Assembly (NCBI RefSeq): GCF_029167375.1
Contig: NZ_JARFTP010000034.1
Coordinates: 1-43,176, forward strand
Direction of reading: 5' to 3'
DNA length: 43,176 bases
From: Tsukamurella sp. 8F
GTDB lineage: Bacteria; Actinomycetota; Actinomycetes; Mycobacteriales; Mycobacteriaceae
Positions 5,595 through 41,408 of this stretch are shown piece by piece. The notes beneath the pieces were generated by a model. It saw only the letters and a program-made list of their open reading frames with translations, was not told where the DNA came from and searched no databases. A program made the position numbers and the translations under genes. The number at the start of each line of letters is the position of its first letter. Position 1 is the first letter of the stretch.

Positions 5595-6962
5595 CTATCG
5601 GTGCCAGCTATCGATCAGGGTGCGTTCGAGCAGCTCGGCGAATTCGCCCGCCGACGACTCGTCGAACTGCCGATGCCGGTAACACAGGGAGAGGAACAGC
5701 TCACCGCCCAGTGTCACGGCGCCCAGGGAAGTGCCCATAGGCATGTTGGTCGGGGCAGAGAACCAGAATCCGGTTACGCCGACGCCGGCATCAGCGTCGA
5801 GGTCGTCGAACGCCGTGGTCGCGCCTAGGTTGGTCACGACGGCGGTGTCGAGGATTCGGTTCCCGATGAGTGGCTTTCTGCGAATCATCCACTGCTTGAT
5901 CCCGATTGGGAGCCGACTCATCCCAGCGAGGAGGTTGAACATGAGCTCGCCCCCCGAATCCTTCTTGATCTGAGCGGTGCGAGCCGCAGCCGCTCTCACC
6001 GCGCTCGGGAGGTCTTTCAGGGCGGGCCCCTCCAGCGACACAGAGGTGGGTACCGCGAAATTGCCCACAATCTCGCGGCGCCACTGCGCCGGCCGGATGT
6101 CAATCGGCATCATCAGACCGATGCGGCCCCGCGGCGCACCATGTGCGTCGTTCCATCGCTGGATAGCGACTGCGAACGCGCCGAGCAGGAGATCGTTGAC
6201 CGTTGTGCCTGCCGGTCTGGCTTCAAATACCCGTCGAGTCGTGGACGCATCGTAGTGGAGCAAACAGAAGCCGTATCCATCGGCGGACGAGGTGCTCTTC
6301 GGCGCAATCCAGACTGGTGTACTTATGCGGCTCCGGCTGATCCGCCGCAGCTCACGGGAGCGCCTGCGTTGGCCTGCGCGCGACTTGTCGCCGAGTGGGC
6401 GGTCCAGGGAACGTGCCTGGAGCGGGTCGACGTTCGGCACCTGGTCCCGCCGATGAGAGTACGCGCGCAGCAATGACACCAGGAACCTCGTTCCTGCGGT
6501 GGCATCGGCGGCGGCATGGTGGAGGTTAAGAACCAGGCGATCCCCGCTGGGCAGATGAGCGAGCAGCAGTTCGAAGGGGCCGAATCGATCGAGTCGCGGC
6601 GCGTGGTCCAAGAGATGCTCGCGCGCGGCGTCCAGGTCGGAAGCGTTTCGGCATTCCACGATCCTGAGGGGTAGCTCGGTCAGGCTCGCCCCGACCTCCC
6701 AGTGGTAGTTGCGATGCGCCACCCCGTGTTCCGCCAGCCGGGCACGCATCATGGGGTGGGTGTCGATCGCAGAGCCAAGCGCCGCTTGGAGTTTGGCATC
6801 ATCGAGGCGGCCGGAAACAGCCAACTCCAGCTGGATTCCACATGGGCTTGGGGGGGAGTCCAGATGGAGGAAAAACTCGTCAATCGGGTTCAAGGCGGTT
6901 TGTGCCAGAGTTTCACCGCCGGAGTCGCGGGTTGAGGCCTGAGCTGTGGTCGCTTTGAGCAT
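5595..6962 (-). CDS. Condensation/PapA-like acyltransferase
   Basis: The product of about 455 residues belongs to the CoA-dependent acyltransferase superfamily that includes NRPS condensation domains, PapA acyltransferases and wax ester/DGAT enzymes. The active-site motif is HHAAAD at 148-153, with His149 as the expected base. The usual Gly after the Asp is replaced by Ala. The C-terminal half keeps family features: TVNDLLLGAFAVAIQRW, a MMPIDIRPAQ strand and GNFAVPTSVSL. I start it at ATG 6962, after GGAAG, because the open frame upstream overlaps the preceding DUF1702 gene. It is 73 bases downstream of that gene and probably in its operon. A likely role is O- or N-acylation of the polyketide, or release onto an alcohol. 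No DFGWG motif is seen. Confidence 0.75.
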   Translation of the reverse strand: MLKATTAQASTRDSGGETLAQTALNPIDEFFLHLDSPPSPCGIQLELAVSGRLDDAKLQAALGSAIDTHPMMRARLAEHGVAHRNYHWEVGASLTELPLRIVECRNASDLDAAREHLLDHAPRLDRFGPFELLLAHLPSGDRLVLNLHHAAADATAGTRFLVSLLRAYSHRRDQVPNVDPLQARSLDRPLGDKSRAGQRRRSRELRRISRSRISTPVWIAPKSTSSADGYGFCLLHYDASTTRRVFEARPAGTTVNDLLLGAFAVAIQRWNDAHGAPRGRIGLMMPIDIRPAQWRREIVGNFAVPTSVSLEGPALKDLPSAVRAAAARTAQIKKDSGGELMFNLLAGMSRLPIGIKQWMIRRKPLIGNRILDTAVVTNLGATTAFDDLDADAGVGVTGFWFSAPTNMPMGTSLGAVTLGGELFLSLCYRHRQFDESSAGEFAELLERTLIDSWHR

Positions 6963-7035
6963 TTGTCGTCTTCCGTTCGAACCGCGACTAGCGATCGGTG
7001 TTCCGGAGGGGCGGTCTCCGCGGACCTGCGCGTTC

Positions 7036-7983
7036 CTAGCTGAGGGCCCCGACGGGCGTGAACGCCTCGATGACTGCCTCCTGGACAATTTGAAACGCGG
7101 GCCGCGAGTAGTGCGCCGGAATATTAGCGAGCACGTCGTCAACGACGGCGCCGGCGTCGGAACTGCTTGCCTCGCACAGTACTTCGCATGCCATTTCGGT
7201 GTCGGGCACGGGGTTGCCGGCCCGGTGGCGGCCTTTGGCTGCGAACGCCGCCCCTGCTGCGACGTACGGGACATGCGGCGCAGCGACCTCTCGAAGGCGG
7301 GCGATCTCCCAGGGCTCCATGCCGCCGGCGTAGCAGCAGCCGGTGCCGATTCCGAGCCATAGGTCTGCTTGGCGCGCCGGGCTGAACGCGGCGACGTCGG
7401 CTGCCACTCGATCGACGTCGGCGCCCGCCGTGAACCAGATACTCCGGCCAAGTCCCTGGTCGAATACTCGGCGAGCGTAAGGGGACAGATAGGGGGCCAG
7501 CAGTTGTTTTGTCACGTATTTCTCGCGCTGGAAGAAGCCGTGGTGGAACCCGTATCCGTCCATGACGAGCCAGCGTTCGACGGGGTTGTCGAGTCGGTTC
7601 AGGAATGGCTCGGGTAGGCGCCCCATCCGAGCCAGTGCCTCGCCGGCGCCGATGTGTGACATATATATGTGCGCGTCTCCCGCTCCGGCGAGGAACTCCC
7701 GGAACCGCGACTTGCCGGGCAGCCAGCAGTCCATGCCGGTCAGACCCATTGCGATGCCTTCATGGGCGTATCCGTTCATGCCCTTCGGGAAGCGTTCCAG
7801 CACCCTGTTCACCATGGCGTCGATTCCGCCGCCTTCAAGGACCGCGTGATATCCGCCGACGGCGGCGCGTAATGCGTCTTCCAGATGGCGCCATCGCGGT
7901 GTGTCACCCTGTTTAAAGGCAACGATCTGCTTTTCAGAAACCCCTAGGAGCGCAAGGCGCACGCGGGAAAGAGTAGTGGTCAC
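7036..7983 (-). CDS. DUF1702 (UnbL-like) protein 1
   Basis: This 315-residue protein has the DUF1702 blocks shared by all four copies in the window: YAHEGIAMGLTGMD, HIGAGEALAR, DGYGFHHGFF, FDQGLGRSIWF and DLWLGIGTGCCYAGG. DUF1702 corresponds to UnbL, a protein found beside enediyne PKSs whose biochemical function I do not know to be established. There are no membrane segments or cofactor motifs; the conserved aromatic, Gly and acidic positions suggest a soluble helical enzyme or binding protein. It leads a minus-strand pair with the condensation-like gene and diverges from the SnoaL-like gene. Its motifs look closest to copy 4 (15515-16495). Confidence 0.85.
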   Translation of the reverse strand: MTTTLSRVRLALLGVSEKQIVAFKQGDTPRWRHLEDALRAAVGGYHAVLEGGGIDAMVNRVLERFPKGMNGYAHEGIAMGLTGMDCWLPGKSRFREFLAGAGDAHIYMSHIGAGEALARMGRLPEPFLNRLDNPVERWLVMDGYGFHHGFFQREKYVTKQLLAPYLSPYARRVFDQGLGRSIWFTAGADVDRVAADVAAFSPARQADLWLGIGTGCCYAGGMEPWEIARLREVAAPHVPYVAAGAAFAAKGRHRAGNPVPDTEMACEVLCEASSSDAGAVVDDVLANIPAHYSRPAFQIVQEAVIEAFTPVGALS

Positions 7984-8484
7984 GGTGTCCTCACTCGCGA
8001 AGTGGTCGTTCGATTGGCGTCGCTCAACGGTGATCGTGTTTAGGGGGAGTTACGAGGGACTTACCCCGCCGGAAAGGCGAGGGAGGTCCGTCGGCGAGGC
8101 TCCGTCTCACGTGCGCCCGCGCGGACGTAGCCGCTGTTCGTTGGGTCGCGCCCACATCGCTGCATCGTAGCGAAGGTGCTCTTCATGATCGCACGGTCAT
8201 CTGGGTCGCTGCCGGGTCGAGCGTCGCCGACCTCGGAACGGCGGTCAGCCAGCCCCTCCATGGGTGCTAACGGCGTCTAGACTTGATCTTGTCGTCTTTG
8301 CTTGACTTATCTCGAACCGTCCGGCAGGGTTGCTGCCTAGCAGGGCGATCAGCTCCCAGGCTCGGACGCGGCGTCCCCCCGCGTGCAGCTGGAGCAGCAA
8401 GATGGCAAGGGTGCTCACGGCTGGTCGCGTTTGCGGCAATGACACCTGCTCGACCCTTCATTTCGACGAAAAGGATGCACCAGC
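7984..8484. other. Divergent control region with possible SARP relic
   Basis: This 500-base gap between divergent genes should hold promoters for both. On the minus strand, about 8445-8245, a frame reads LAILLLQLHAGGRRVRAWEL and then IALLG, which resembles the winged-helix of a SARP/AfsR regulator. It lacks the rest of such a protein, so it may be a decayed fragment or chance. Confidence 0.3.
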
Positions 8485-8844
8485 ATGACGCAGCAGCAAT
8501 CGACTCTGGACACCCTCCGCGCCTACCATCAGAACTGGACGACGGGGAAGATCGATGAGGCACTCGAGTACGTTGCCGATGACATCGTGTGTAAGGCTCC
8601 GGGGGGAGACTTGGTCGGCAAAGATCAGTATCGCGCCATCTTGACGCAGTTCCAGTCCACGATGACCGGCGTGACCGATGTGGCGTTCTACGCCAACGAT
8701 CACGAGGCTGCGGCCTTCTACATCCCCGCCACCACGGCGACGTCAACCTCTACAGTGGCCGAGCACTTCACCTTCCGAGACGGCAAGATCGCCGAGAACC
8801 TGCTGACGTTCGACCAGCTCGCTTTCATGCCCCCGAAGGAGTAG
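8485..8844 (+). CDS. SnoaL-like / NTF2-fold protein
   Basis: The 119-residue product has the classic NTF2-like order: an N-terminal helix (LDTLRAYHQNWTTGKIDEAL), a strand-turn (YVADDIVCKAPGGDLVGKDQY), then strands ending HFTFRDGKIAENLLTFDQLAF. The segment FRDGKIAE is characteristic of the SnoaL/limonene-epoxide-hydrolase-like fold. Members act as polyketide cyclases, dehydratases, isomerases or epoxide hydrolases. The start follows AAGGATG at good spacing. It is probably co-transcribed with the exporter 124 bases downstream, although that gap holds a tandem repeat that could be regulatory. A role in cyclisation or isomerisation of the polyketide is inferred from context. Confidence 0.75.
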   Translation: MTQQQSTLDTLRAYHQNWTTGKIDEALEYVADDIVCKAPGGDLVGKDQYRAILTQFQSTMTGVTDVAFYANDHEAAAFYIPATTATSTSTVAEHFTFRDGKIAENLLTFDQLAFMPPKE

Positions 8845-8905
8845 TTACCCGCGCTGGCCATGGAACCAGCTACACGCACCCAGGGAAGTCATCCGGCTCA
8901 AGAAC

Positions 8906-8953
8906 GACGAGTACCTAACCTCTGATCTAGACGAGTACCTAACCTCTGATCTA
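8906..8953 (+). repeat. Perfect 24-bp tandem duplication before the exporter gene
   Basis: Two exact, contiguous 24-base units (8906-8929 and 8930-8953) begin GACGAGTACC and end CTGATCTA. The second unit is followed at once by AAGGAG, the ribosome site of the exporter gene. The arrangement fits a duplicated operator or leader element controlling the exporter. Confidence 0.8.
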
Positions 8954-8968
8954 AAGGAGACACCCGTA

Positions 8969-10435
8969 ATGACTCGCTCAGAAGAGTCCGCGGAATCGGC
9001 AGTGTCCGCGGAACCAGGAACATCGTTGGCGACGACTTACGGCAGGATCGTCGTAGCGTTGCTGTGTGCTGTGGGGTTCTTGGACTTCATGGACAGCGTC
9101 ATCGTCAACGTGGCGCTGCCCTCGATGCAAAGCCATCTCGGGTTCTCCGAGCAGAGCTTGCAGTGGGTGGCCAGTGGTTATCTGTTGACGTACGGCGGCT
9201 TTATGTTGCTAGGTGGCCGTCTAGCAGACCTCACAGGGCGTCGGCGCGTGCTGATCGTCGGCACAGCCGTGTTTGCTCTTGCGTCTCTGGTCGGAGGGCT
9301 TGCCACCACCGGGGCTGTTCTGGTCGCCGCCCGGCTCGTCCAGGGTGCCGGCGCGGCTCTGATGATGCCCGCCGCTCTATCCACCTTGACGACGACGTTC
9401 AAGGAAGGGGCAGACAGAAACCGGGCCCTGGGGGTCTGGGGTGCGATGATCGGCCTCGCCTCGACAGCTGGAGTGCTGTTCGGCGGGATGCTCACTGAGT
9501 GGTTCACCTGGCGATCGGTGCTCCTGGTCAACCCCATCATCTGCGTGTTCCTTCTCGCGGCGCTATTTCGTGTGCTGCCGGACGATCGGCGGCAGGCATC
9601 CGGGGGCGGAGGCTTTGATGCCGTGGGCGCAGTACTGGCCACTTGCGGTGTGGTGCTCCTTGTTTACGGGATCGTCGAAGCGCCGGATTCTGGCTGGAAG
9701 TCGATTAGTACGATTCTTCGGCTTGGTGGAGGGCTCGTGCTCTTGATCGCGTTCGTAGTGAACGAACGGATGCGCCGTAATCCGTTGATGCCGCTGTCCA
9801 TCTTCAGGGTTCGTGGTCTGGCGGCAGCTGACGTCACACAGTTGATCGCCATAGCCGGGTTCATGTCGATGTTCTTCTTCTTGACGCTCTACATGCAGAA
9901 CGTGCTCGGCTACTCCGCCCTCAAGACAGGCCTGGTCTATCTTCCCGTCACGGTGGGGGTCGGGATCGGAGCCGGCCTCTCGACCAAGCTGATCCCGAAG
10001 ACCGGCACACGGCCGCTGATTGTGGGCGGCTGCTTCCTCGCATCGATCGGGGTCTTCCTGCTGTCCCGGCTCCCGGTCCACGCGAGCTTCGTCTCCGACA
10101 TCCTGCCGGGAATGATGGTGATGTCCTTGGGACTTGGAACCGTCATGGTGACGGTCACCAACGCGGCCAACGCCGGCGTGCCGGCAGACAAAGCCGGTCT
10201 TGCTGCGTCGTTGCTGAACTCTTCGCAACAGCTTGGCGGGGCCCTCGGACTGGCGGTGCTGACCACAGTCGCCACGTCACACACGACCCACCTGCTCGCC
10301 GGCGGCGTAAGTCAGCCCGAGGCCCTGACTTCGGGGTTCACCCGCGCGTTGTTCGCCAGCAGCATCGCGATCTTCGTGGCAGCCCTCATCGGCCTGGGAA
10401 CCTACAACACACGGAGTAACGACGCTCCCATGTAG
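8969..10435 (+). CDS. MFS drug exporter, DHA2 (EmrB/QacA) family, copy 1
   Basis: This 488-residue membrane protein has about 14 hydrophobic segments. It shows the DHA2 signatures: LDFMDSVIVNVALPSMQ in helix 1, motif A as GGRLADLTGRRRVL, and the helix 4-5 region (VQGAGAALMMPAALSTL). Members export hydrophobic drugs and secondary metabolites by proton antiport. ATG 8969 follows AAGGAG. The gene is closely similar in sequence, including a near-identical last nine residues (NTRSNDAPM against NTRSTDAPM), to the exporter at 12100-13539, so the two arose by duplication. It is followed by a strong terminator. Self-resistance and product export is the likely role. Confidence 0.92.
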   Translation: MTRSEESAESAVSAEPGTSLATTYGRIVVALLCAVGFLDFMDSVIVNVALPSMQSHLGFSEQSLQWVASGYLLTYGGFMLLGGRLADLTGRRRVLIVGTAVFALASLVGGLATTGAVLVAARLVQGAGAALMMPAALSTLTTTFKEGADRNRALGVWGAMIGLASTAGVLFGGMLTEWFTWRSVLLVNPIICVFLLAALFRVLPDDRRQASGGGGFDAVGAVLATCGVVLLVYGIVEAPDSGWKSISTILRLGGGLVLLIAFVVNERMRRNPLMPLSIFRVRGLAAADVTQLIAIAGFMSMFFFLTLYMQNVLGYSALKTGLVYLPVTVGVGIGAGLSTKLIPKTGTRPLIVGGCFLASIGVFLLSRLPVHASFVSDILPGMMVMSLGLGTVMVTVTNAANAGVPADKAGLAASLLNSSQQLGGALGLAVLTTVATSHTTHLLAGGVSQPEALTSGFTRALFASSIAIFVAALIGLGTYNTRSNDAPM

Positions 10436-10499
10436 ATGAGACTGCGGCCGGCCGGAAGAATGCCACCTTCTGGACTCGCGTGGACCGCCCCATGAAACT

Positions 10500-10539
10500 A
10501 AGCCCGGCCAGGGCCCCGACGCGGGCCCTGGCCGGGCTT
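10500..10539 (+). terminator. 17-bp perfect stem terminator
   Basis: AAGCCCGGCCAGGGCCC (10500-10516) pairs exactly with its complement at 10523-10539 over a 6-base loop (CGACGC). It lies 65 bases past the exporter stop. Confidence 0.85.
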
Positions 10540-11434
10540 GGCATGATCGGCGCTGAAAATCCCCTTTAGCTGCGATCGCCGGTCAAGTATGCCTCCGGGG
10601 TACGGAGCGCTGAACGCGCTGGGGACCAATGCCGCACTCTGCCACAGCCTGTTGCCGAGGTGCCTGCACCGTCTACTGCCGACAACAGCGTGATCCACGC
10701 CCTGCGACGCACAATCCGGGGCAAAGGACACCGAGAACGCACAGCTACGGGCGCAGATCCGCAGCCTCGCCAAAGCACTCGCCGCAGCGCATGCGGAGAT
10801 CGAGCATCTGACCCCCGCCATGATGTCGTGGCGTCGGCCACGCGCCACACCAACCCGATCGGTCGGCGGACCGTGCACCCGCCGGGGCCAGGGCGTGCCA
10901 CGCCTTCGCGGACGCCAATTCGCACGGGTGCATAGTGGGGCATCCAACCGGACCATCGCACTTAGCGCCCTTGTGATGTCGCCGGCGTCCTCGCGTCAGT
11001 CGTTGGCGGAGCACCGTGCCGACCGCTGCGCCACACGGACCACACGCATGACCATAAAACAGAGGCCCGTCGTGGTCGCTCCGCGGTAGACGGCACCTGG
11101 GCCATGGCTCGCGTCCCGCATGCTTGCTCCGTCTAGTGGCGCGATCGTGCCGTGCGGATGACCGTCAGCCCGCCCGCCTCGGCCGCGTACGTTCGGAGCT
11201 GATCAGCCTGGTGGGACTACAACGCGCCGACGCCCCGCGGCGTCCGCGGGAGATCACCGAACAGCGCCTCGGGGTCACCGGCACCGCGCGGGGCGCGCCG
11301 CCGGAACCTCGGACGCGAATCGGAAGGTGTCATCGTCGGAGCATATCCATGCCGATATGTCACCCCGACCTCGCGCGGCCAACGCGCGTAGCTCTGCGCC
11401 GGCGGTCCAGCGTCCATCCTCAGTAATTTTGCCG
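10540..11434. other. Gene-poor region between the two exporter units
   Basis: About 900 bases without a supportable gene. On the + strand, 10712-10801 reads in one frame as a coiled-coil-like peptide containing ENAQLRAQIRSLAKALAAAH and then AEIEHL. Such segments are common in transposase accessory proteins and other actinobacterial proteins. The flanking codons are not coherent, so this is probably a decayed gene fragment. The rest shows high-GC shadow frames only. Confidence 0.45.
10712..10801 (+). pseudogene. Possible remnant of a coiled-coil-encoding gene
   Basis: The frame encodes a heptad-like segment (LRAQIRSLAKALAAAHAEIE) with a strongly amphipathic pattern, followed by an incoherent Arg/Pro-rich sequence. 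No start or domain boundary is visible. The parent family is not identifiable; a transposon accessory protein is one possibility. Confidence 0.25.
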
Positions 11435-12058
11435 CTAAGCGACTTTCTCGTTTGACGGCGAAGCGTCTGCATCGTGGCGCATCGCGAGTTGCACTGCCGC
11501 CCAATGACTCTCAGATAGCCTTCGTATGTTGTTCATCTGCTTACTCACCATCAGCAGGTCGAGCCATCCCGTCGCGTACTGGAACACCAACCCGAGCCGC
11601 TTCGCACGAGGAAGGGTCAGCTTGACGATCAAACGGGATCCGTGTTCGCCTCGCGGTCGGACGACGTAGCTTATGGCCAGATCTCCGAGAAGAAGCCGCG
11701 GAATCCATCGGCTCAATCTGATCGTGACGTGCTCGTCGTAAACGAAACTGGCCAGCGTGAACAGGGTCATGAACCGTTGCCCCACTGCGAGTCGTTCTAG
11801 CCCGGGGGTCAAGGTTCGAGGACTCTGTCGTCCGAGATTGTTCAACAGGTCATAACTGTAGGGTCCCACACGGATCTGGCAGAGCCATCTGAAGACCAGG
11901 TACGGTGGCGCCTCGATGTCCATTGCGCGGTGCGGTTCGGTCCTGGGACCGTCCCCTACCTCTATGTCGCACGGAAACGTCTCGCAGAACTCAGCTTTGG
12001 TTGATCCCCGCACGAACGGCAATCCGGTCGGGCTGAATAGTGTCTCCTTCAAAGACAT
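11435..12058 (-). CDS. SRPBCC (START-like) domain protein
   Basis: The 207-residue product has an SRPBCC-like pattern: DIEAPPYLVFRWLCQIRVGP for the first strand and helix, then GLERLAVGQRFMTLFTLASF, a beta-rich middle (ISYVVRPRG, RLIVKLTLPR), and a long C-terminal helix (GWLDLLMVSKQMNNIRRLSE). SRPBCC proteins bind hydrophobic ligands in a deep cavity; relatives include polyketide aromatase/cyclases and lipid-transfer proteins. It is the last gene of the minus-strand operon that begins with DUF1702 copy 4, 41 bases after the exporter. It could cyclise or carry the polyketide; this is inference. Confidence 0.7.
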   Translation of the reverse strand: MSLKETLFSPTGLPFVRGSTKAEFCETFPCDIEVGDGPRTEPHRAMDIEAPPYLVFRWLCQIRVGPYSYDLLNNLGRQSPRTLTPGLERLAVGQRFMTLFTLASFVYDEHVTIRLSRWIPRLLLGDLAISYVVRPRGEHGSRLIVKLTLPRAKRLGLVFQYATGWLDLLMVSKQMNNIRRLSESHWAAVQLAMRHDADASPSNEKVA

Positions 12059-12099
12059 ACCTGGTTCTCCATTCCTGAATCAGTTGCTCGGCGCGTCGT

Positions 12100-13539
12100 T
12101 CACATGGGCGCGTCGGTGCTACGAGTGTTGGTGGTACGCGACCCCAGCAGTGCAGCGACCACCAGGGCTATACCAGCGACAAACATTCCGCGACCAAACC
12201 CCCCGGTCAGTGCTGCCATGGGGTCGGTGCCTCTTGCGAGCAAATCGTTGGTGCGCGAGGTGGCGACAGTCGCCAGCACGGCGAGCCCTATCGCCGCGCC
12301 GAGCTGCGTGGATGAGTTCAGCAACGACGCAGCAAGACCGGCTTTGTCCGCCGGAACACCAGCGTTGGCTGCATTGGTTGCAGCGACCATGACGGCCCCC
12401 AGGCCGACTGACAGCACCATCATGCCTGGCAAGAGATCGCGTACGAAGGTGCCGTCGGCGGGCACCCGAGCCAGGATGAATATACCCACCGCCGCGACAG
12501 CAGGAGCGGTAACCATGAGAGGCCGGGTGCCAATCATCGGAATGAGTTTGGTAGCGATACCGGCTCCTGCCCCTATACCGAACGTGAGAGGCAGGTATAG
12601 GAGCCCGGTTTTCAATGACGAGTATCCTAGAACATGCTGCATGTACAGGGTGAGGAAGAAGAACATCGAAGTCAGTCCCGCCATGGCGAGAAGTTGGGTG
12701 CCGTCAGCAACGGCGAGTCCGCGAATCTTGAAGATCGACAGCGGCATCAGAGGGTTTCGATGCATGCGCTCGTCCACCACGAAGGCGATGAGAAGCGCGG
12801 CCCCGCCCACCAGTCTCAGGATTGTGCTAGCCGAACCCCAGCCGGCCTCGGGCGCTTCGACGATGCCGTAAACAAGTAGCAGCACCCCGGCGGTGGCGAG
12901 AACTGCGCCGAGTGCGTCGAAACCTCGCCCGCCTGCCAAGTGGCGGTCATCGGGCAGCACCCGAAACATCGCCACGATAAGCAGCGCGCAGATCGCCGGG
13001 TTGACCAGTAGGACCGAACGCCACCCGAACGCGTCGGTGAGCACACCCCCCAGCAGGACTCCGGCGCCGGCGGCGATCCCCACCGTCGCGCCCCATATGC
13101 TCAGCGCACGGTTTCGGTCGGCGCCCTCCTTGAACGTCGTGGTCACGATTGACAGCGCTGCCGGCACCATCAGCGCGGCGCCTGCGCCCTGGACCAGGCG
13201 GGCCGCGACGAGCATCGCCCCACCCGTCGCCAGACCTCCCGCGAGCGAGGCGAGCGCGAAGACGGCCGTGCCGACCACCAGGACCCGCCGGCGGCCGGTA
13301 AGGTCGGCGAGGCGACCGCCCAGCAGCATGAAACCGCCGTAGGTCAGGACGTATGCGTTCGGAACCCATTGCAGGCTCTGCTCGGAGAACCCGAGATCGT
13401 TTTGCATCGAGGGCAGGGCCACGTTGACGATCACGTTGTCCATAAAGTCCAGGAACGCTATCGCGCACAGCAACCCAACGACGACTTTGCCGTACGTTGT
13501 CGACAGCACCGAACTTCCCGTTTCAGCAGTCGCAGCCAT
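12100..13539 (-). CDS. MFS drug exporter, DHA2 family, copy 2
   Basis: The product of about 479 residues is a 14-helix DHA2 exporter closely similar to the one at 8969-10435. It shares LDFMDNVIVNVALPSMQ, GGRLADLTGRRRVL and an almost identical C-terminus (NTRSTDAPM). I start it at ATG 13539, after GGAGG, because the first 16 codons of the longer frame lack a ribosome site and do not match copy 1. It is 51 bases after DUF1702 copy 2 in the same operon. Two near-identical pumps on opposite strands suggest dosage for self-resistance or export of two related products. Confidence 0.92.
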   Translation of the reverse strand: MAATAETGSSVLSTTYGKVVVGLLCAIAFLDFMDNVIVNVALPSMQNDLGFSEQSLQWVPNAYVLTYGGFMLLGGRLADLTGRRRVLVVGTAVFALASLAGGLATGGAMLVAARLVQGAGAALMVPAALSIVTTTFKEGADRNRALSIWGATVGIAAGAGVLLGGVLTDAFGWRSVLLVNPAICALLIVAMFRVLPDDRHLAGGRGFDALGAVLATAGVLLLVYGIVEAPEAGWGSASTILRLVGGAALLIAFVVDERMHRNPLMPLSIFKIRGLAVADGTQLLAMAGLTSMFFFLTLYMQHVLGYSSLKTGLLYLPLTFGIGAGAGIATKLIPMIGTRPLMVTAPAVAAVGIFILARVPADGTFVRDLLPGMMVLSVGLGAVMVAATNAANAGVPADKAGLAASLLNSSTQLGAAIGLAVLATVATSRTNDLLARGTDPMAALTGGFGRGMFVAGIALVVAALLGSRTTNTRSTDAPM

Positions 13540-13590
13540 ATGAAGTTCCCTCCTCCAAAGGGGGTCGTTGAGCGAAAGATGGTCCAACTG

Positions 13591-15512: not shown

Positions 15513-15514
15513 GG

Positions 15515-16495: not shown

Positions 16496-16781
16496 CGTCT
16501 ACATCCTTTGAAGAAGTCGGTGCCGGTACTGCTCGCTTCGACTCCATGCTGTGCTGGTCGACTTCCCCACACTTACCTCGATCGAAAGAGGGACCATATA
16601 AGGCGGCGTACGTCATAGACGACATCGTTCCCCGGCGACGTGGGGCCGTGTATGCAGCAATGCCGGTGCGCGCGCCTCCGCTGTGATCGCGAGTGGGACC
16701 CCAGATGCCTTACCGCGGATGTAACTTCGCCGGAAGTCACTTAAACCAGAGTCGGGACTGCGCCGGCGTAGAGGAGCACCG
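16496..16781. promoter_or_regulatory. Divergent control region: DUF1702 operon and P450
   Basis: This gap separates two divergent units and must carry both promoters. I see no coding sequence and no large repeat. The P450 start is preceded by GAGGAG. I could not assign -35/-10 boxes with confidence. Confidence 0.5.
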
Positions 16782-18287: not shown

Positions 18288-18392
18288 TGCGGCTCGGTAG
18301 CGATCGTCTGCTTCCCTAAGGGTTGGTGGTGGATTGCGCACGCCTAGAAAGAATCCACACGGTTCGCGCAAGTACGAATTCACCGTCGGCAG

Positions 18393-18428
18393 TTGAACAA
18401 CACTTGAAGATTTGATATACTCAAGTGT
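18393..18428 (+). promoter_or_regulatory. Promoter and operator of HxlR gene 1, leaderless
   Basis: A near-consensus promoter is visible: TTGAAC (18393-18398), a 17-base spacer, then TATACT (18416-18421). The start ATG begins 9 bases past the -10, so transcription should begin at or next to the ATG and the mRNA would be leaderless. The 8-bp inverted repeat ACACTTGA (18400-18407) / TCAAGTGT (18421-18428) spans the -10, as expected of an autoregulatory operator. Confidence 0.7.
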
Positions 18429-18429
18429 A

Positions 18430-19980: not shown

Positions 19981-20257
19981 GCCCCGAGGGTATCCGAGGC
20001 GTTCCCGCGTGCACCCTAAATCTTGTCGGTTTGGATTCGGGTGACATGAGATGGCCCCGTGAGTGGAGCGACCGATATCCTGCCTCAACGTGGGTCGCTC
20101 CGGCCGTCGACGTCCCGAGTGCTCCGTCGCAGTGCTGACCCTGACGGCTTAGCAATCGCTCGAGCGATCTCGCCACGGTCCGGCCCGGCTCCGCGCGGCG
20201 GTCCGCAGAAGGCTGTGACTGTCCCCCGAGTGCTCGCCACATCCTCGGTGCAGTTGG

Positions 20258-32673: not shown

Positions 32674-32683
32674 GGGAAACACA

Positions 32684-34432: not shown

Positions 34433-34482
34433 GAGTGGGCGCCGACGTGACGAGTCGAGCATCCAGTAACGAGAGTAACCAC

Positions 34483-35349
34483 ATGGCGACATCCATTCGG
34501 TCCCGCTTGGGAGAGCTGTCACCTGACCAGCGGGTCGGACTAGCAGAACGCCTGCGTCAAAACGCGCAGCGCCGTAGCTCCGCTTGGTTCGTCAAGCATG
34601 CCGACGACGAACGTCCAGTGCGTCTGTTCTGCTTCCCGTATGCGGGAAGCGGCGCCAGCGTATTCCACACCTGGCCAGCCCTACTTCCCGACTACGTGCA
34701 GCTGTGCGCGCTCCAGCTGCCCGGACGCGAGACTCGTCTCACCGAAAATCCCTATCGTCAGCTCCGGGCGCTGGTCAGCGACTTGGGCGATGAGATCATC
34801 CCCCTGCTGGATCGCCCCTTTGCCTTCTTCGGGCACAGCATGGGCGCGCTCGTAGCCTTCGAACTCGCGCGACAGCTGGGGGATCATGACGTCCTCCAGC
34901 CGTCTCGCCTGTTCCTTTCTGCCTTCCGCGCACCACAGCTGCCCAACCCGAACATCAAGATCTTCCACTTACCCGACGAGGTACTGAAAACTGTTCTCGC
35001 CAAGGAAGGGATGCCGAGAGGTCTGCTCGACAGCGACGAAGTCATGGCGGCACTACTGCCTGCCTTGCGCGCAGACCTCGAGGTATGCGACACCTATAAG
35101 TACGCACCGCAAGCGCCACTGTCCATACCTATCTCGATGTACGGGGGGCTCCAGGACGTACGCGTGGGTCGCGCCGACCTAGCCGCTTGGGGCGACGAAA
35201 CGTCGGCATCGTTCGATCTCACTATGCTGCCCGGTCCGCACCTGTTTCTGCAGAGTGCCCAGGAGCAGTTGGTAGCGAGTATCGCGCGAAAACTAGGCCC
35301 CCCGGCCGACCGCCCCAGAGCCACGGCGATATCGAGTCTTCACGAATGA
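34483..35349 (+). CDS. Type II thioesterase with N-terminal docking-like helix
   Basis: The 288-residue product is a GrsT/RifR-type alpha/beta hydrolase. It shows CFPYAGSGASVFHTWPALLP near the N-terminus, the nucleophile Ser119 in FGHSMG, and His253 in LPGPHLF. Such enzymes clear mis-primed carriers or release products. The first 30 residues (MATSIRSRLGELSPDQRVGL, AERLRQN) are an added helix that aligns with the N-terminus of halogenase-like enzyme 1. The ATG at 34483 is chosen because the frame upstream overlaps the halogenase end. As the only thioesterase seen in the locus, and since the PKS lacks a TE domain, it may release the chain. Confidence 0.88.
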   Translation: MATSIRSRLGELSPDQRVGLAERLRQNAQRRSSAWFVKHADDERPVRLFCFPYAGSGASVFHTWPALLPDYVQLCALQLPGRETRLTENPYRQLRALVSDLGDEIIPLLDRPFAFFGHSMGALVAFELARQLGDHDVLQPSRLFLSAFRAPQLPNPNIKIFHLPDEVLKTVLAKEGMPRGLLDSDEVMAALLPALRADLEVCDTYKYAPQAPLSIPISMYGGLQDVRVGRADLAAWGDETSASFDLTMLPGPHLFLQSAQEQLVASIARKLGPPADRPRATAISSLHE

Positions 35350-35458: not shown

Positions 35459-38400
35459 ATGATCGAACAGAAGGGCCGCATGGATCGGCCCGAGCCGCTC
35501 GCGATCGTAGGAATCGGCTGCCACTTCCCAGGGGGCGCAACAACTCCGAGCAAGTTCTGGGATCTGCTCTGCGCTGGCGTCGACGCCACCTCGGAGGTGC
35601 CCGAGAACCGGTGGGAGTCGCGCAAGTTCTACGACCCCGACAGCGGGAAGCTCGGCAAGATGTCGACGACCCGAGGCGGCTTCCTCGACCGAGTCGACCA
35701 GTTCGACGCTCATTTCTTCGGAATCGCTCCGCGGGAGGCGATCTGGATCGATCCGCAGCAGAGGCTGTTGCTACGGGCGGCGTGGGAGGCGTTCGAAGAC
35801 GCTGGACAGCCGGCGGACCAACTCGCTGGTAGCGACACCGGGGTGTTCATGGCGGGGTTCACCCTGGATTACAACCTGCTGCAAAACTACGGAGTGCAAA
35901 GCCGCTACGAACTCGACTCGCACTCCGCGACGGGAATGATGTCGACGATGCTGTCCAATCGACTCTCGTATTCCTTCGACTTCCGCGGCCCCAGCCTTAC
36001 CGTTGACACGGCCTGCTCAGGATCGCTCGTCGCGGTACACCTTGCAGCACAGTCGATCTGGAACGGCGAATGCTCGATGGCTCTCGCCGGAGGCGCAAGC
36101 GTGATCCTCGCACCGAATATGACGATCGCCGAGTCCAAGGGCGGCTTCCTCAGCGCCGATGGGCGGTGCAAGGCGTTCGACGCCAGCGCCGACGGCTACG
36201 CCCGGGGCGAGGGAGCGGGGGTTGTCTTGCTGAAACCGTTGAGCCGCGCACAGGCCGACTGCGACGACATCTACGCACTGCTCGTCGGAAGTGCGGTCAC
36301 TCAAGACGGCCGCACCAACGGAATCACCGTGCCCAACGGTGACTCTCAAGCCGAAGCGATGCGCGTCGCATGCGCTCGCGGCGGGGTAGAGCCGCGCCAA
36401 GTGAGCTACGTCGAGGCGCACGGCACTGGCACTCCACTCGGAGATCCCATCGAAGCCACGGCCATCAGCAGTGTCTTTGCTCAAGACCCTTGTCGTGACC
36501 CTGTCCTGGTCAGCTCGGTCAAGACCAATATCGGACATCTCGAAGCTGCCGCAGGCGTAGCCGGCCTGATCAAGACCGCACTGGTTCTGAAGAACGGACA
36601 GGTTCCCGGACACCTGCACCTGAACGAACCGAACCCCGCAATCGATTTCGACGAGCTGGGTATTCGTGTACCAGCGGAGCTCGAAACGCTGCCGGACGAG
36701 GCAGCCCCCCGGTTCGCCGGCGTCAACTCGTTCGGTTTCGGAGGTACCGTGTCGCACGCCGTCTTGCAGAGCGCACCGGCACTCGCACCGCAGACTACCG
36801 ACGAAACCGCCCCGCGGGAGGGCACCCCTCGGCTGCTGACGCTGTCCGCCAAGAGCGCTCCGGCGCTGCGTGATGTTGCAGCATCCATGTCCGACCGCCT
36901 CCTTGAGCCAGGCGGCAGCCTCGACGACATCGCCTTCTCGTGCAACGTCCGGCGAACACATCATGAGCACCGCCTGTCCGTGGTCGCGAGCGACGCGGTC
37001 GAGGTCCGCGAACGCCTGGCGGAGTTCGCTGGGGGAGAGGAGCATCCGGACGTGGTCACTGGACGGGCCCGAGTTGGATCGACACCTCCGAAACTGGCGT
37101 TCGTGTTCACTGGCATGGGCCCCCAGTGGTGGGCGATGGCCCGTCAGTTGCTCGACTCGGAACCCGTGTTCCGTGATGCAGTCCAAAGATGTGATGACGA
37201 GCTACGGAGATACACCGGTCGCTCCCTGATGAGTGAGATGCTTGCCTCGGAGGACGAGTCTCGCATGTCCGAGACCGAGGTCTCGCAGCCGGCAAACTTC
37301 GCTGTCCAGGTGGGCCTGACCGACCTCTGGCGGGCACGCGGAATCACTCCGGACGCGGTCATCGGCCACAGCACGGGAGAGGTTGCGGCACAGTACATCG
37401 CCGGCGTGCTGAGCTTCGAAGATGCGGTCAAAGTCGTCTACCACCGCAGCAGACTCCAACAGCGCACATCAGGCCAGGGCCGGATGCTTGCGGTGGGTAT
37501 GACGCCGGAGACACTCAATCAGGCGGTCGCTGACGCTGGACCACTCGTCTCTGTGGCCGCGATCAACGGCCCGAGCGCAGTGACGATCGCCGGTGAATCC
37601 GCAGCCCTGGAAAACATGGCCGACCAACTGGAGACCTTCGGAGTCTTCCACCGCTTCCTCGACGTAGCAGTCCCGTTCCATAGTCATTACATGGATCCCC
37701 TCCGAGCGGAGCTCGTAGACGGACTGCAAGACATCACCCCTCGGTCCGCGACAGTCCCGCTGTACTCGACGGTGACCGGAACTCGGATCAATGGTCGGGC
37801 GGCCGACGCCGAGTACTGGTGGCAAAACGTCCGAGCCACCGTGTTGTTCGCGTCCGCATTCAGCCAGATGGTCAGCGACGGGTACACCCACATCGTCGAG
37901 ATCGGACCGCACCCCGTCCTGGCCAGCTCGATGCGGGAGCTGCTCGCCGACGGCGAGGGGCTGCTCGTGCCCTCTCTTCGTCGGAATGGAGACGACCACA
38001 GAGTCCTCCTGCAATCGCTCGGTGCATTGCACAATCACGGGCACCGGCCAGACTGGAGCACACTCCATCACCCGTCGGCGAAGTACGTGAAGCTGCCGAC
38101 GTATCCGTGGCAACTCGAGACGTTCTGGAACGAGTCAGCCGAGGCGAGGGAGGATCGCCACTACGCTCAGGTCCATCCACTACTGGGCCAAAGGATGAAC
38201 GCGTCCCACCACACGTGGGAGCTTGAGGTCAGCGCATCGCACCCCGCGTTCCTGACCGATCACCGGATCCAGAACAGTACGCTGTTGCCTGGCGCAGCCT
38301 TTATCGAGATGTCGTTGGCAGCGGGACGTGACGTCTACGGCCTCGGCGTTGGCGACCTAAGCATCGAGGATCTTACGTTCCACAGGGCGCTGATTCTGAG

Positions 38401-41062
38401 CGACGCGTCAGACGCGCGGCTGCGGACAATCCTCTACGAGAGTGATGCTCGCGTAGAGATCGCGAGCTTCGTCGCCCTCCCCAACGGGACGCGGGAATGG
38501 ACCATTCACGCCACAGCAAAGCTCAACCTGCGGACCGCAGCTGCGGGTCACAACGAGTTGGCGGCCGTCCGCAGCGAGTGCCAGATACAAATCGGCCGCT
38601 CCGACTTCTACGATCAGACGTCGGAGATGGGTTTTCAATACGGCCCATCATTCCAGCCGGTGCAAGAGATCGCTTACGGGCAGGGGATCGCGATGGGCAC
38701 CCTTGAGGTGCCTACGGCGATCGCCGACGAACTCGGGGACTACCTATTCCACCCATCACTGGTGGACGGGGCATTCCAGGTCCTGCTGACAGCCGCTACT
38801 CCGGCTGACTCAGATGCAACCCGCTCCACACCGTTCCTGCCGGTGGGGCTGCGGCGGGTCGACGTCCTGGCGCCCCCGACGAGGACCATGGTGGCCGTCG
38901 CTCATGTGGTCGAGGCCGACGACGCTCACATAGTCAGCGATATCACGCTCAGCGACACGGACGGCAGGATCCTGGTCAGACTATGCGGCTTTCACGCCCA
39001 GTCTCTCCAGACCACGACTGCGTTGTCGACCGAGCGAATCGACCGAGACCTACTGGAACTGCAGTGGCAGAAGGCATCCCGTAATGACGTAGATCGGAGC
39101 GCCGGCGAGGAGGACGCTGCGGCATGGCTCATCTTCGCCGATCGAACCGGCGTCGCCGCTGAAATAGCGCAGATGCTGCAGAGCGATGGGGTCCGAGTCT
39201 TCACGGTCGCACGAAACAACAGTGGACCTCGCGATCTTGGAACGGTTCAGGACTCGTTCTCCATCGACCCTGCCGACCCCGAGCAGTACAAATCCGTGGT
39301 CCGCGCCCTGAACAACACCCCGATAGCCAACGTCATTCACCTGTGGAGCCTCGATGCTCCGGCGGATGACGGCTCGGTCGACGGTTCCGCACTGGCATCC
39401 CAGGATTTCGGCTCGCAATCGGTCATGCTTCTGATCCAGGCAATCTCGGCCGAACTGGGCCAGCTACCTAAGGTTTGGTTGGCAACCCGAGGTGCACAAG
39501 CAGTAGGGACTGGTGAAGCACCGCCCCACATCGATCAGGCGGCAATGTGGGGGCTAGCGAGAGTCGTTGGACACCAGGAGTTCACGAGCCTCTGGGGTGG
39601 CATATGCGACCTCGACCCGGACTCGACCGCGGCGACCCAGGGACGCGCGCTGCTCGAAGAGGTGATCCACTCCGACGGGGAGGATCAAATCGCATTCCGG
39701 CAGGACGAGAGGTACATCCTGCGACTGTCGGAGGTCAGCGGCCTCAAGCGACCTTTCCCCGCAAGCATGCGAGAGAATGGAACCTACCTCGTCACCGGTG
39801 GCCTCGGGGCCCTAGGGTTGCTCGTGGCGCGGTTCCTGGTCGAAAACGGCGCACGCGACATCGCCCTGACGAGTCGCAGCGGTCTTCCGCCGCGAAACTG
39901 CTGGAGCACGGTCGAAACGTCACATCCTCAACGTCACCTCATCGACGCCGTCGTCGAACTTGAATCGAAGGGAGCCCGGATACACGTAGCAGCCGTGGAC
40001 GTCGCTGACGACGCCCAGATGCGCGCCTGGCTCGACGACTACTACAGGAGCGGAATGCCTCCTGTACATGGCGTCGTTCACACTGCCGGAGTTGTGTCGG
40101 ACGAGCTGCTTATCCGAATGAACACCGCCGACTTCCATCGTGTCCTGCGCCCGAAGATTGGTGGCGGCCAGGTGCTCGACAGGCTGTTCGGCGACGCCGA
40201 CCTCGATTTCTTCGTCCTGTTCTCTTCCGTGGGGTCGGTGATCGCATCGCCAGGACAAGCAAACTACGCCGCCGGCAATGCATACCTGGACGCTCTAGCG
40301 CACCACCGGCGAAGCCGTGGGCTTCGTGCTCTTAGCATCGGCTGGGGTCCATGGTCGATCGGAATGGTCAAAGATCTAGATCTAGAACAGGTGTACGCGC
40401 GCCGCGGCATCGGCCTTATCACCCCGGAATCTGGCATGCACATCCTCGGCCGACTGCTGAACCAGGCTGTCCCGCACACCGTGGCAATCACTGTGGACTG
40501 GGAGGTTGCTCAGGAATCGTCCTTCGCTGGGAACCCACCACCCATGTTCTCCCTGCTCGGACCAAGCGGACAAAATGGCCAGGGCGACCTCGTCGGAGCG
40601 AGCGACGCCCCCCTTAGAGAGCTGCAAAGCGCGGAGCCCGGCGAGCGGTTCCCGATCTTGGTTCGTCACCTGGGGGCGATGGTGTCTGCAGTCCTGGGCC
40701 TCGAGGTCGAGCAAGTACCGATTGATGAGAATCTCAACAGCCTCGGCTTCGACTCGATGATGGCTCTCGAACTGAAGCGCCGCGTCGAAATCGGACTGCA
40801 AGCAGACGTGTCGGTCCTCGAGCTCCTTCAGGGAATAACGATCACGAGCCTGGCCCAGGCTCTGATGTCTGACCTGCTGATGCCCACGGACGCACCGCCC
40901 GCGGACCAGACAACCGCGTCCACCGCGGAGGATCACCAGATCGACGCTGAGCTGGATGAACTAGAGCAACTCCTCGCTTCCGCGGATCCGTCTGAAATCG
41001 AACAGCTTCTCAAAGAGGTCGAAGGCGGTGCGCTTGGAGCCGCACCGGGAAGCGGTTCATGA
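35459..41062 (+). CDS. Single-module type I PKS, KS-AT-DH-KR-ACP
   Basis: The 1867-residue megasynthase has the following domains. KS, about 12-440, with Cys186 (DTACSGS), His321 (EAHGTGT) and His360 (NIGHLE). AT, about 545-860, with GHSTGE and Ser638; the specificity region reads VPFHSHYMDPL, which has Phe as in malonyl-type ATs. DH, about 905-1190, with His935 in DHRIQNSTLLPG (the usual Gly is Asn) and Asp1103 in VDGAFQ. KR, with GGLGALG at 1447-1453 and Tyr1603 in QANYAAGN. ACP, with Ser1766 in LGFDSMMAL. An acidic helical tail lies at about 1824-1857 (ELDELEQLLASADPSEIEQL). There is no ER, TE or PPTase. One module with reduction and dehydration suggests an iterative synthase making a polyene or aromatic product. 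It starts after GGGAGG. Confidence 0.95.
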   Translation: MIEQKGRMDRPEPLAIVGIGCHFPGGATTPSKFWDLLCAGVDATSEVPENRWESRKFYDPDSGKLGKMSTTRGGFLDRVDQFDAHFFGIAPREAIWIDPQQRLLLRAAWEAFEDAGQPADQLAGSDTGVFMAGFTLDYNLLQNYGVQSRYELDSHSATGMMSTMLSNRLSYSFDFRGPSLTVDTACSGSLVAVHLAAQSIWNGECSMALAGGASVILAPNMTIAESKGGFLSADGRCKAFDASADGYARGEGAGVVLLKPLSRAQADCDDIYALLVGSAVTQDGRTNGITVPNGDSQAEAMRVACARGGVEPRQVSYVEAHGTGTPLGDPIEATAISSVFAQDPCRDPVLVSSVKTNIGHLEAAAGVAGLIKTALVLKNGQVPGHLHLNEPNPAIDFDELGIRVPAELETLPDEAAPRFAGVNSFGFGGTVSHAVLQSAPALAPQTTDETAPREGTPRLLTLSAKSAPALRDVAASMSDRLLEPGGSLDDIAFSCNVRRTHHEHRLSVVASDAVEVRERLAEFAGGEEHPDVVTGRARVGSTPPKLAFVFTGMGPQWWAMARQLLDSEPVFRDAVQRCDDELRRYTGRSLMSEMLASEDESRMSETEVSQPANFAVQVGLTDLWRARGITPDAVIGHSTGEVAAQYIAGVLSFEDAVKVVYHRSRLQQRTSGQGRMLAVGMTPETLNQAVADAGPLVSVAAINGPSAVTIAGESAALENMADQLETFGVFHRFLDVAVPFHSHYMDPLRAELVDGLQDITPRSATVPLYSTVTGTRINGRAADAEYWWQNVRATVLFASAFSQMVSDGYTHIVEIGPHPVLASSMRELLADGEGLLVPSLRRNGDDHRVLLQSLGALHNHGHRPDWSTLHHPSAKYVKLPTYPWQLETFWNESAEAREDRHYAQVHPLLGQRMNASHHTWELEVSASHPAFLTDHRIQNSTLLPGAAFIEMSLAAGRDVYGLGVGDLSIEDLTFHRALILSDASDARLRTILYESDARVEIASFVALPNGTREWTIHATAKLNLRTAAAGHNELAAVRSECQIQIGRSDFYDQTSEMGFQYGPSFQPVQEIAYGQGIAMGTLEVPTAIADELGDYLFHPSLVDGAFQVLLTAATPADSDATRSTPFLPVGLRRVDVLAPPTRTMVAVAHVVEADDAHIVSDITLSDTDGRILVRLCGFHAQSLQTTTALSTERIDRDLLELQWQKASRNDVDRSAGEEDAAAWLIFADRTGVAAEIAQMLQSDGVRVFTVARNNSGPRDLGTVQDSFSIDPADPEQYKSVVRALNNTPIANVIHLWSLDAPADDGSVDGSALASQDFGSQSVMLLIQAISAELGQLPKVWLATRGAQAVGTGEAPPHIDQAAMWGLARVVGHQEFTSLWGGICDLDPDSTAATQGRALLEEVIHSDGEDQIAFRQDERYILRLSEVSGLKRPFPASMRENGTYLVTGGLGALGLLVARFLVENGARDIALTSRSGLPPRNCWSTVETSHPQRHLIDAVVELESKGARIHVAAVDVADDAQMRAWLDDYYRSGMPPVHGVVHTAGVVSDELLIRMNTADFHRVLRPKIGGGQVLDRLFGDADLDFFVLFSSVGSVIASPGQANYAAGNAYLDALAHHRRSRGLRALSIGWGPWSIGMVKDLDLEQVYARRGIGLITPESGMHILGRLLNQAVPHTVAITVDWEVAQESSFAGNPPPMFSLLGPSGQNGQGDLVGASDAPLRELQSAEPGERFPILVRHLGAMVSAVLGLEVEQVPIDENLNSLGFDSMMALELKRRVEIGLQADVSVLELLQGITITSLAQALMSDLLMPTDAPPADQTTASTAEDHQIDAELDELEQLLASADPSEIEQLLKEVEGGALGAAPGSGS

Positions 41063-41150
41063 ACTGTGCTGGCGCGCAAAATGACGAGGGGTGCCGATCC
41101 TCCATCGTCCAGTTGATCCGGCAGCACGTCGATATTGAAAGGAGCACCCG

Positions 41151-41408
41151 TTGCCCTACGTAGTAACCGCGCCGTGCATAGGAACCAAAGACGCATCGTG
41201 CCACAGTGCCTGCCCGGTAGACGCGATTCACCCTTCGCCCGATGAGGCCGAGTTCGATTCAAGCGAACAGGTCTACATCGACCCGACGGTGTGTATCGAC
41301 TGCGGGGCGTGCGAACCAGCGTGTCCGGTCGAGGCCATCTACTTCGATGGCGAAGTGCCAACCGAATGGCAGTCGTCGATCGCTGCGAATGAGGCGTACT
41401 TCGACTAG
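41151..41408 (+). CDS. 7Fe (3Fe-4S/4Fe-4S) ferredoxin
   Basis: The 85-residue product carries two cluster motifs: Cys9, Cys17 and Cys21 (CIGTKDASCHSACP) and Cys48, Cys51, Cys54 and Cys58 (CIDCGACEPACP). All seven ligands of the FdxA-type 7Fe ferredoxin are present. The start is TTG at 41151, after AAAGGAG; there is no nearer ATG or GTG in frame. It ends the + strand operon, 88 bases after the PKS. It is a plausible electron donor to the P450 at 16782 and would link the two halves of the locus. No ferredoxin reductase is encoded here. Confidence 0.88.
   Translation: MPYVVTAPCIGTKDASCHSACPVDAIHPSPDEAEFDSSEQVYIDPTVCIDCGACEPACPVEAIYFDGEVPTEWQSSIAANEAYFD

Follow-up and report, generated by a model that had tools for sequence, protein, structure and literature searches.

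Four DUF1702 genes are syntenic with halogenase-type flavoproteins and a single-module polyketide synthase in Actinomycetota and Chloroflexota

Enediyne polyketide synthases (PKSEs) have the domain order KS-AT-ACP-KR-DH-PPTase, and DUF1702 genes stand in the core cassette of the enediyne C-1027. The conserved enediyne cassette is given as E3/E4/E5/E/E10 (PMC5181780); by C-1027 gene order we read E3 as the DUF1702 gene and take E4 and E5 as the UnbV- and UnbU-type genes. Among 5.39 million open-access papers the word DUF1702 was found in a single one, where it stands in a figure legend on enediyne clusters, and a search of the same literature returned no stated function for the family. The cluster of the chlorinated polyenone neocarzilin, published in 2004, reportedly combines a FAD halogenase and a type II thioesterase with several polyketide synthase (PKS) modules, its type I PKS acting iteratively; it is not known to contain a DUF1702 gene, and it is likened to the present locus by its described gene content. 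We analysed a contig of Tsukamurella sp. 8F (C28, 43,176 bases, in its full length called the window; the genome has 4.68 Mb in 70 contigs) which carries four DUF1702 genes in one half and, in the other, a single-module PKS next to two halogenase-type flavoproteins (FDH1, FDH2). No recognisable paper on this gene set was found in the open-access literature, as judged by titles and the start of abstracts.

The two halves of this locus are one biosynthetic system, common to Actinomycetota and Chloroflexota. A first-pass annotation of the window had listed four DUF1702 genes, one KS-AT-DH-KR-ACP PKS and two halogenase-like enzymes, and profile searches recovered all of them. The four DUF1702 proteins score 205-273 bits against PF08012 (gathering cut-off 25 bits), are all encoded on the minus strand and make up the DUF1702 total of the whole genome; the halogenase-like enzymes are Trp_halogenase-type FAD proteins. 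The main genes of the system in the window are listed below; gene starts come from a simple purpose-written gene caller, and G270 is a genome from another genus of the same family.

7036-7983, minus strand: DUF1702 protein a (DUFa; PF08012, 263 bits), 80% identical to G270
13591-14535, minus strand: DUF1702 protein b (DUFb; PF08012, 234 bits)
14532-15512, minus strand: DUF1702 protein c (DUFc; PF08012, 205 bits)
15515-16495, minus strand: DUF1702 protein d (DUFd; PF08012, 273 bits)
24582-25913, minus strand: cation:proton antiporter, NhaP type (Na_H_Exchanger; PF00999, 158.8 bits)
30847-32673, plus strand: halogenase-type protein FDH1 (PF04820), 608 residues, motif Y-W-V-W-L-I-R, 70% identical to G270
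32684-34432, plus strand: halogenase-type protein FDH2 (PF04820), 582 residues, motif Y-W-V-W-L-I-P, 68% identical to G270
34483-35349, plus strand: stand-alone thioesterase (TE; PF00975, 140.8 bits)
35459-41062, plus strand: single-module type I PKS with the Pfam domains KS-AT-DH-KR-ACP, 60% identical to G270

A synteny search in relatives, which the annotation had named as a test, found DUF1702 together with halogenase genes, and with the PKS where the contig was long enough, in Nocardia, Streptomyces, Kribbella, Nocardiopsis, Herpetosiphon and Ktedonobacteria. G270 has counterparts of the window genes clustered in some 26 kb; these comprise SnoaL, MFS, HxlR, a conserved protein termed F207, DUFa, DUFd, DUFc, DUFb and a second MFS gene, as well as a third halogenase (FDH0), antiporter, regulator, FDH1, FDH2, TE, PKS, ferredoxin, SCP2 and a further regulator. 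Identity to the window proteins is mostly 47-80%; more distant are the antiporter (36%), the second MFS protein (33%) and FDH0 (49-50%, to window FDH1). In the Tsukamurella genome FDH0 was found on another contig, C40 (26.5 kb; positions 15083-16831 of stretch L040), and is 70% identical to FDH0 of G270. G248 has a single DUF1702 gene immediately before FDH1-FDH2-TE-PKS.

Named genomes were scanned with the halogenase alignment, and the best 80 of 279 relatives gave 77 loci; further members of the family therefore exist. These loci show three layouts (types A, B and C), with two loci outside them (L132, L134). In type A, four DUF1702 genes occur and FDH0 lies near FDH1-FDH2. TE and PKS are present in Streptomyces sp. 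ODS25, a Pseudonocardiaceae bacterium and Nocardia amamiensis, the latter two genomes with an extra FDH1-like gene. The short contig of Lentzea aerocolonigenes ends in FDH2 and has DUF1702 and halogenase genes and no PKS; that of a Brachybacterium metagenome-assembled genome (MAG) has one FDH gene, four DUF1702 genes and likewise no PKS. Type B is carried by Kribbella, four Streptomyces, two Nocardiopsis, Herpetosiphon giganteus and three Ktedonobacteria, and in all 11 loci three tandem FDH genes are followed by TE and PKS (in two loci one FDH was matched in two pieces). The third FDH best matches FDH0 in eight of the 11, and is nearer to FDH1 or FDH2 in Herpetosiphon and two Ktedonobacteria. 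With variations, the type B order is three halogenases-TE-PKS-DUFa-DUFd-antiporter-DUFc-DUFb; the DUF1702-antiporter part of it stands 3' of the PKS in Herpetosiphon, Streptomyces albipurpureus and Kribbella, and recurs in a Ktedonobacterales MAG together with two extra DUF1702 copies. In other stretches the gene caller missed some of the four DUF1702 genes, which DNA matches show. Type C (57 loci) comprises FDH1-PKS and the antiporter in 57/57 and an ABC ATPase in 54/57; it is carried mostly by Mycobacterium and Mycolicibacterium, and also by MAGs labelled Ilumatobacteraceae and Acidobacteria. Compared with the window, type C shares the antiporter, an FDH1 at 49-53% and a full-length PKS at about 46-49% identity; no relative of DUF1702, FDH2, FDH0 or TE was found in the 57 loci, which reach up to 10 kb to each side, some being shorter.

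Whole-genome searches covered 25 genomes, namely all 16 of types A and B and nine from the other 59 loci (seven of the 57 in type C and the two that fit none of the layouts). DUF1702 was present in 16/16 type A/B genomes (12 Actinomycetota, 4 Chloroflexota) and in none of the nine comparison genomes, including 0/7 of type C. The association is strong (Fisher about 5e-7), with the qualification that related genomes are not independent and that one type A genome (L070) was sorted with the help of DUF1702; the other 15 have FDH2 in their loci. Exactly four DUF1702 genes accompany the cluster in 13 of the 16; in one of these, Nocardia amamiensis, a fifth copy lies next to an enediyne-type cassette. 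The Ktedonobacterales MAG has six, Ktedonospora five (one interrupted), and one MAG split over contigs has one beside the antiporter and one beside a PKSE. Chance is excluded as an explanation, since only 6 of 301 genomes sampled from the family, and 3 of 396 sampled from the phylum, have DUF1702, the Tsukamurella genome being counted in both. Among the five other family genomes with DUF1702, G270 and G248 carry the system, G212 and G257 have UnbV/UnbU and G174 has neither; in the two other phylum genomes DUF1702 stands beside UnbV. Halogenase and DUF1702 numbers rise together: one halogenase and no DUF1702 in type C, two and one in G248, at least three halogenases with four DUF1702 genes in most of types A and B.

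The DUF1702 gene of G174 (L193/L194, joined position 15794-16795) represents a third setting for the family and lies beside ABC-transporter-like genes and a ketosynthase-like stretch; no UnbV/UnbU match was found in this genome, and no relative of the system's halogenases in the 38 kb of sequence inspected.

When ten C-1027 proteins were compared with the window, relatives were found for the DUF1702 proteins, the PKS (29-31%) and a cytochrome P450 (30%), and none at E <= 0.001 for UnbV, UnbU, SgcE6, the DUF5987 protein, the GMC protein or SgcE10. UnbV and UnbU were not found in the whole Tsukamurella genome either, in line with the annotation, which had noted that the enediyne architecture and these two genes are absent. 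Of the 19 genomes with the system that were searched in full, 17 likewise lack both genes, and the other two have a separate enediyne-type cassette. Because of this absence and the synteny with halogenases and PKS, DUF1702 serves a non-enediyne polyketide pathway here, as the annotation had proposed. The locus resembles the C-1027 cassette in that DUF1702 stands beside a single-chain PKS, here a putative polyene maker. Unlike that cassette, it has the domain order KS-AT-DH-KR-ACP, lacks UnbV (CRTAC1), UnbU (RnfD-like), SgcE6 and SgcE10 in the window, and contains four DUF1702 genes of other lines together with halogenases and an antiporter. A canonical enediyne cluster was thus rejected on PKS domain order, KS identity (31%) and the lack of UnbV/UnbU and E10. 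As a separate observation, the Ktedonobacteraceae MAG G314 (L139) has an enediyne-type PKS beside DUF1702, 63% identical over 380 residues to the C-1027 PKSE, with UnbV- and UnbU-like genes on the same contig; this MAG also has a halogenase-PKS cluster.

In a DUF1702 tree of 49 rows (48 distinct, one gene occurring twice; the single DUF1702 of G248 was left out) the four window proteins fall into four orthologous lines, each with members from Chloroflexota and Actinomycetota, and seven enediyne-side proteins form a separate group. This tree, like the others, was built with FastTree and midpoint-rooted; support values were seen for the DnaE2 tree only. At 27 positions at least 95% of the rows agree, the enediyne-side proteins included, with four of these positions varying in one or two of the seven. 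The polar residues E75, D142, D175, R180, R204 and R252 are invariant in 49/49 rows, and D85 and R93 (48/49) and D207 (47/49) nearly so. There is no hint of a metal site because neither Cys nor His is among the 27 positions. The predicted model of DUFa is all-helical (predicted local distance difference test, pLDDT, 91.6; predicted template modelling score 0.89). Against solved structures, the DUF1702 profile gave just three matches, all to engineered or designed proteins and spanning 46 residues.

For the PKS, one KS clade contains the 16 type A/B domains including those of the window and G270, and G248 groups with type C; the tree holds 46 of 88 distinct KS domains, Mycobacterium being represented only in part. 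Identity of the window KS is 67-78% to the other domains of types A and B, 61-65% to those of type C and of G248, about 52% to those of G288 and G257, which have a broader FDH-TE-PKS-antiporter set, and 31% to the C-1027 PKS. The whole protein is 46-47% identical to four Mycobacterium PKSs. In the window and 12 relatives, the KS motifs, the AT motif GHSxGE, the DH histidine (DHx8PG) and the KR nucleotide motif are kept in 13/13, a Gly of the DH motif is substituted in 4/13 (by Asn in the window), and the ACP serine was matched by pattern in 12/13 and in a separate check in the remaining one. A polyene chain is expected since KR and DH are present and ER is absent.

The halogenase-type proteins were compared in 110 sequences, 10 short or interrupted ones of 120 FDH matches having been dropped. 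The lysine, assigned by its position in PrnA, and the motif W-x-W-x-I are conserved in 110/110. The last motif position is Arg in 73, Pro in 35 and Ala in 2: Pro is kept in 18/18 FDH2 and 6/6 type A FDH0, and replaced by Arg in most FDH1 and 6/7 type B FDH0, and the Tsukamurella genome has Pro in FDH2 and FDH0 and Arg in FDH1. A conserved lysine and a tunnel motif of two Trp, Ile and Pro are described for halogenases (PMC6864650). Variant B halogenases act on carrier-bound substrates, and CmlS and CndH are listed for aliphatic substrates (PMC8407142). The FDH profile matched solved structures in the order PltA (E 1.1e-29), CmlS (E 4e-27), the flavoprotein 3nix, then ChlB4 and CndH (3e1t; E 6.7e-25). 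All NCBIfam matches shown lie under their cut-offs; the top model for FDH2 is CmlS, which FDH1 matches with 66.7 bits (cut-off 900). The FDHs share the lysine and W-x-W-x-I with the PF04820-type enzymes PltA, CmlS and CndH, and differ from these in their length (608 and 582 residues), in the Arg at the Pro site of most FDH1 and in the polyene substrate expected.

Beyond the system, a related halogenase of Ktedonobacteria bacterium brp13 (L134, 6828-14991) has two short putative carrier proteins and two discrete ketosynthase-like genes at its flanks, and a relative of the ABC ATPase lies upstream; this suggests that the halogenase family also serves type II-like systems.

The antiporter is on the cluster contig in 17 of the 19 genomes with the system. 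It lies inside the DUF1702 run in 8/11 type B genomes; both Nocardiopsis have it after the run, and the split MAG has it next to a DUF1702 gene. Because of this frequency, and since it also neighbours a related halogenase in Janthinobacterium, the antiporter is counted as a core part. In the latter case, plasmid NZ_CP139977.1 (440 kb) of Janthinobacterium lividum (L135, 13359-31290), antiporter and halogenase (43%) share a row with an aspartyl/asparaginyl hydroxylase, an alpha/beta hydrolase and large PKS genes. Janthinopolyenemycin was considered as a possible product of that locus and dropped, the available parts of two reviews being silent on chlorine and genes.

Altogether, we lean towards reading the locus as one biosynthetic gene cluster that was probably acquired and perhaps lies on a plasmid; its product would be a linear polyene polyketide with several halogens, or a cyclised derivative of such a chain, a view drawn from sequence comparison. 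Judged by its architecture, the single-module PKS would be used iteratively and produce a conjugated polyene on its own ACP. By family, motifs and gene order, FDH0, FDH1 and FDH2 would halogenate the carrier-bound or newly released chain, and the stand-alone TE would release it. More speculatively, the four DUF1702 proteins, predicted to be all-helical, might bind the (halo)polyene and promote isomerisation, loss of hydrogen halide or ring closure, a step analogous to their place beside the enediyne PKS, also a maker of linear polyenes. The antiporter would protect the producer from a membrane-active, lipophilic product, which the MFS proteins would presumably export. The cluster flags a widespread family of probable halogenated polyenes. 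As the four DUF1702 lines occur without UnbV/UnbU in named culturable species, DUF1702 can be studied apart from the enediyne machinery, and type C, with one halogenase, PKS and antiporter and no DUF1702, is a natural control.

Several points weigh against this reading. Iterative use of the PKS is assumed from its single module. FDH0 is tied to the window cluster by homology only, because the ends of C28 and C40 do not overlap, and, as the FDHs of Chloroflexota cluster apart in the tree, the three proteins do not correspond one to one between the phyla as orthologues. FDH1 has Arg where known halogenases have the Pro of W-x-W-x-I-P, among NCBIfam models it scores highest, narrowly ahead of CmlS, with that of a flavin monooxygenase, QhpG (73.9 bits, cut-off 240), and the third-best structure, 3nix, belongs to a flavoprotein that does not bear the name of a halogenase. 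The open reading frames scanned included no recognisable flavin reductase. The antiporter is missing from the cluster contig in two type A genomes, Streptomyces sp. ODS25 and the Brachybacterium MAG, and the window copy is only 33-38% identical to those of other members. Finally, the DUF1702 fold gave no convincing match among 1000 chains of solved structures (19 not aligned), and no clue to function.

Of the other explanations, one would bring the locus closer to the enediynes: the FDHs would halogenate the polyene, and the DUF1702 quartet, driven by three halogenations and independently of UnbV and UnbU, would re-shape it into alkynes or rings, such as a strained carbocycle, by removing hydrogen halide or closing rings. 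The locus would then represent a second pathway, an old halogen-dependent enediyne relative common to Actinomycetota and Chloroflexota. DUF1702 is indeed common to enediyne cassettes with their linear-polyene PKS, down to the 27 near-invariant residues, and the parallel rise of FDH and DUF1702 numbers, the P450 with 30% identity to that of C-1027 and an extra DnaE2-type polymerase in the window would fit as well. Furthermore, dynemicin biosynthesis passes through an iodinated intermediate, and the steps to it and to the enediyne core are described as mostly unknown (PMC8725005). However, the KS is just 31% identical to that of the C-1027 PKSE, UnbV, UnbU, E6 and E10 are lacking in the window, DnaE2 occurs in 0/77 named loci and an alkyne role of DUF1702 is drawn from analogy; we consider such a pathway unlikely. 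Equally doubtful appears a neocarzilin-like route, in which the FDHs would chlorinate the acidic alpha carbon of a beta-keto polyene and release by the TE with decarboxylation would yield a (tri)chloromethyl polyenone, the DUF1702 proteins only binding or transporting it. The FDH-TE-PKS-antiporter set of G288 and G257, a similar set in Janthinobacterium and the aliphatic substrates listed for CmlS and CndH (PMC8407142) are compatible with this route, which nevertheless leaves four conserved DUF1702 lines and three FDHs unexplained. Neocarzilin is not mentioned in three reviews that were searched for its name.

The flavoproteins might also be oxygenases (epoxidases or hydroxylases) that oxidise the polyene to a halogen-free product. 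The Arg at the Pro site in most FDH1 and 6/7 type B FDH0 and the sub-cut-off QhpG match argue for such enzymes, whereas the lysine and W-x-W-x-I in every sequence, the Pro in all FDH2 and type A FDH0 and the fact that the two closest solved structures are halogenases argue against them, and we regard this possibility as quite improbable. That the DUF1702/P450/MFS half and the PKS/halogenase half are unrelated loci on one contig deserves hardly any credit. They are separated in the window by the DnaE2-type polymerase and several regulators, yet in several genera from two phyla they are contiguous or operon-like, and on this synteny the idea of unrelated halves was rejected.

The remaining genes of the window are the following.

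5595-6962, minus strand: condensation-domain/PapA-like acyltransferase (PF00668, 39.9 bits), window-specific accessory
8485-8844, plus strand: SnoaL-like protein (PF12680), 57% identical to G270
8969-10435, plus strand: MFS transporter 1 (PF07690), 76% identical to G270
11435-12058, minus strand: conserved protein F207, 67% identical to G270, 74% to Nocardia amamiensis and 64% to Pseudonocardiaceae YIM PH 21723
12100-13539, minus strand: MFS transporter 2 (PF07690), 68% identical to the first MFS protein of G270
16782-18287, plus strand: cytochrome P450, accessory (PF00067, 227 bits), 30% identical to the P450 of the C-1027 cluster
18430-19083, plus strand: HxlR-type regulator (PF01638)
20272-20919, plus strand: HxlR-type regulator (PF01638)
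21096-24362, minus strand: DnaE2-type DNA polymerase
26316-26657, minus strand: SCP2 lipid-carrier protein (PF02036), 64% identical to G270
26773-27702, minus strand: BTAD/SARP-like regulator 1 (Trans_reg_C and BTAD under cut-offs), 58% identical to G270
28470-29060, plus strand: HxlR-type regulator (PF01638), 56-57% identical to G270
29152-29727, minus strand: BTAD-like regulator 2 (very weak BTAD), 47% identical to G270
41151-41408, plus strand: 4Fe-4S ferredoxin (PF00037), 55% identical to G270

Regulators, the DnaE2-type polymerase, the NhaP-type antiporter and the SCP2 protein lie between the two halves; the regulators of the window comprise HxlR/TetR types and, besides these, two that are weakly BTAD-like. 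The TE, P450, ferredoxin, SnoaL protein, condensation-like enzyme and two exporters (MFS) of the annotation were borne out by their Pfam families. Its SRPBCC protein was not: the only candidate, F207, had zero Pfam or NCBIfam matches up to E = 1, and a structure model from three sequences was of very low confidence (pLDDT 37.7). Apart from this label the part list stood; it had overlooked the third halogenase on C40 and the antiporter, and did not hold the DnaE2-type polymerase, the SCP2 protein and the BTAD-like and HxlR/TetR regulators. No relative of the condensation-like protein occurs in the 77 named loci, where those of the P450 are only weak (22-26%).

The DnaE2-type polymerase of the window is an extra copy; a second one, 79% identical, is on contig C41, and 15 other genomes of the genus have one each (split over two contigs in G030). 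As a conserved part of the cluster DnaE2 was rejected, given its absence from the named loci; it might help the cell to tolerate DNA damage, or be cargo of a plasmid.

DUF1702 is absent from all 15 other genomes of the genus. The guanine-cytosine content is 63.8% in the window, 65.9% in C40 and 67.7% in the flank of the genome's other dnaE2; in 11 relatives of the genus the same dnaE2 region has 68.7-73.1%. The cluster was probably acquired, and it may lie on a plasmid. A DNA search with window positions 1-20000 gave zero matches to plasmid records, the plasmid likeness being at the protein level and at the left edge. The genes there (788-5007, minus strand) encode a trypsin-like peptidase, a GIY-YIG nuclease resembling those of Rhodococcus and Prescottella plasmids, and a protein that shares 56% identity with one from a Herbiconiux plasmid. 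C40 also carries a gene with distant relatives on actinobacterial plasmids.

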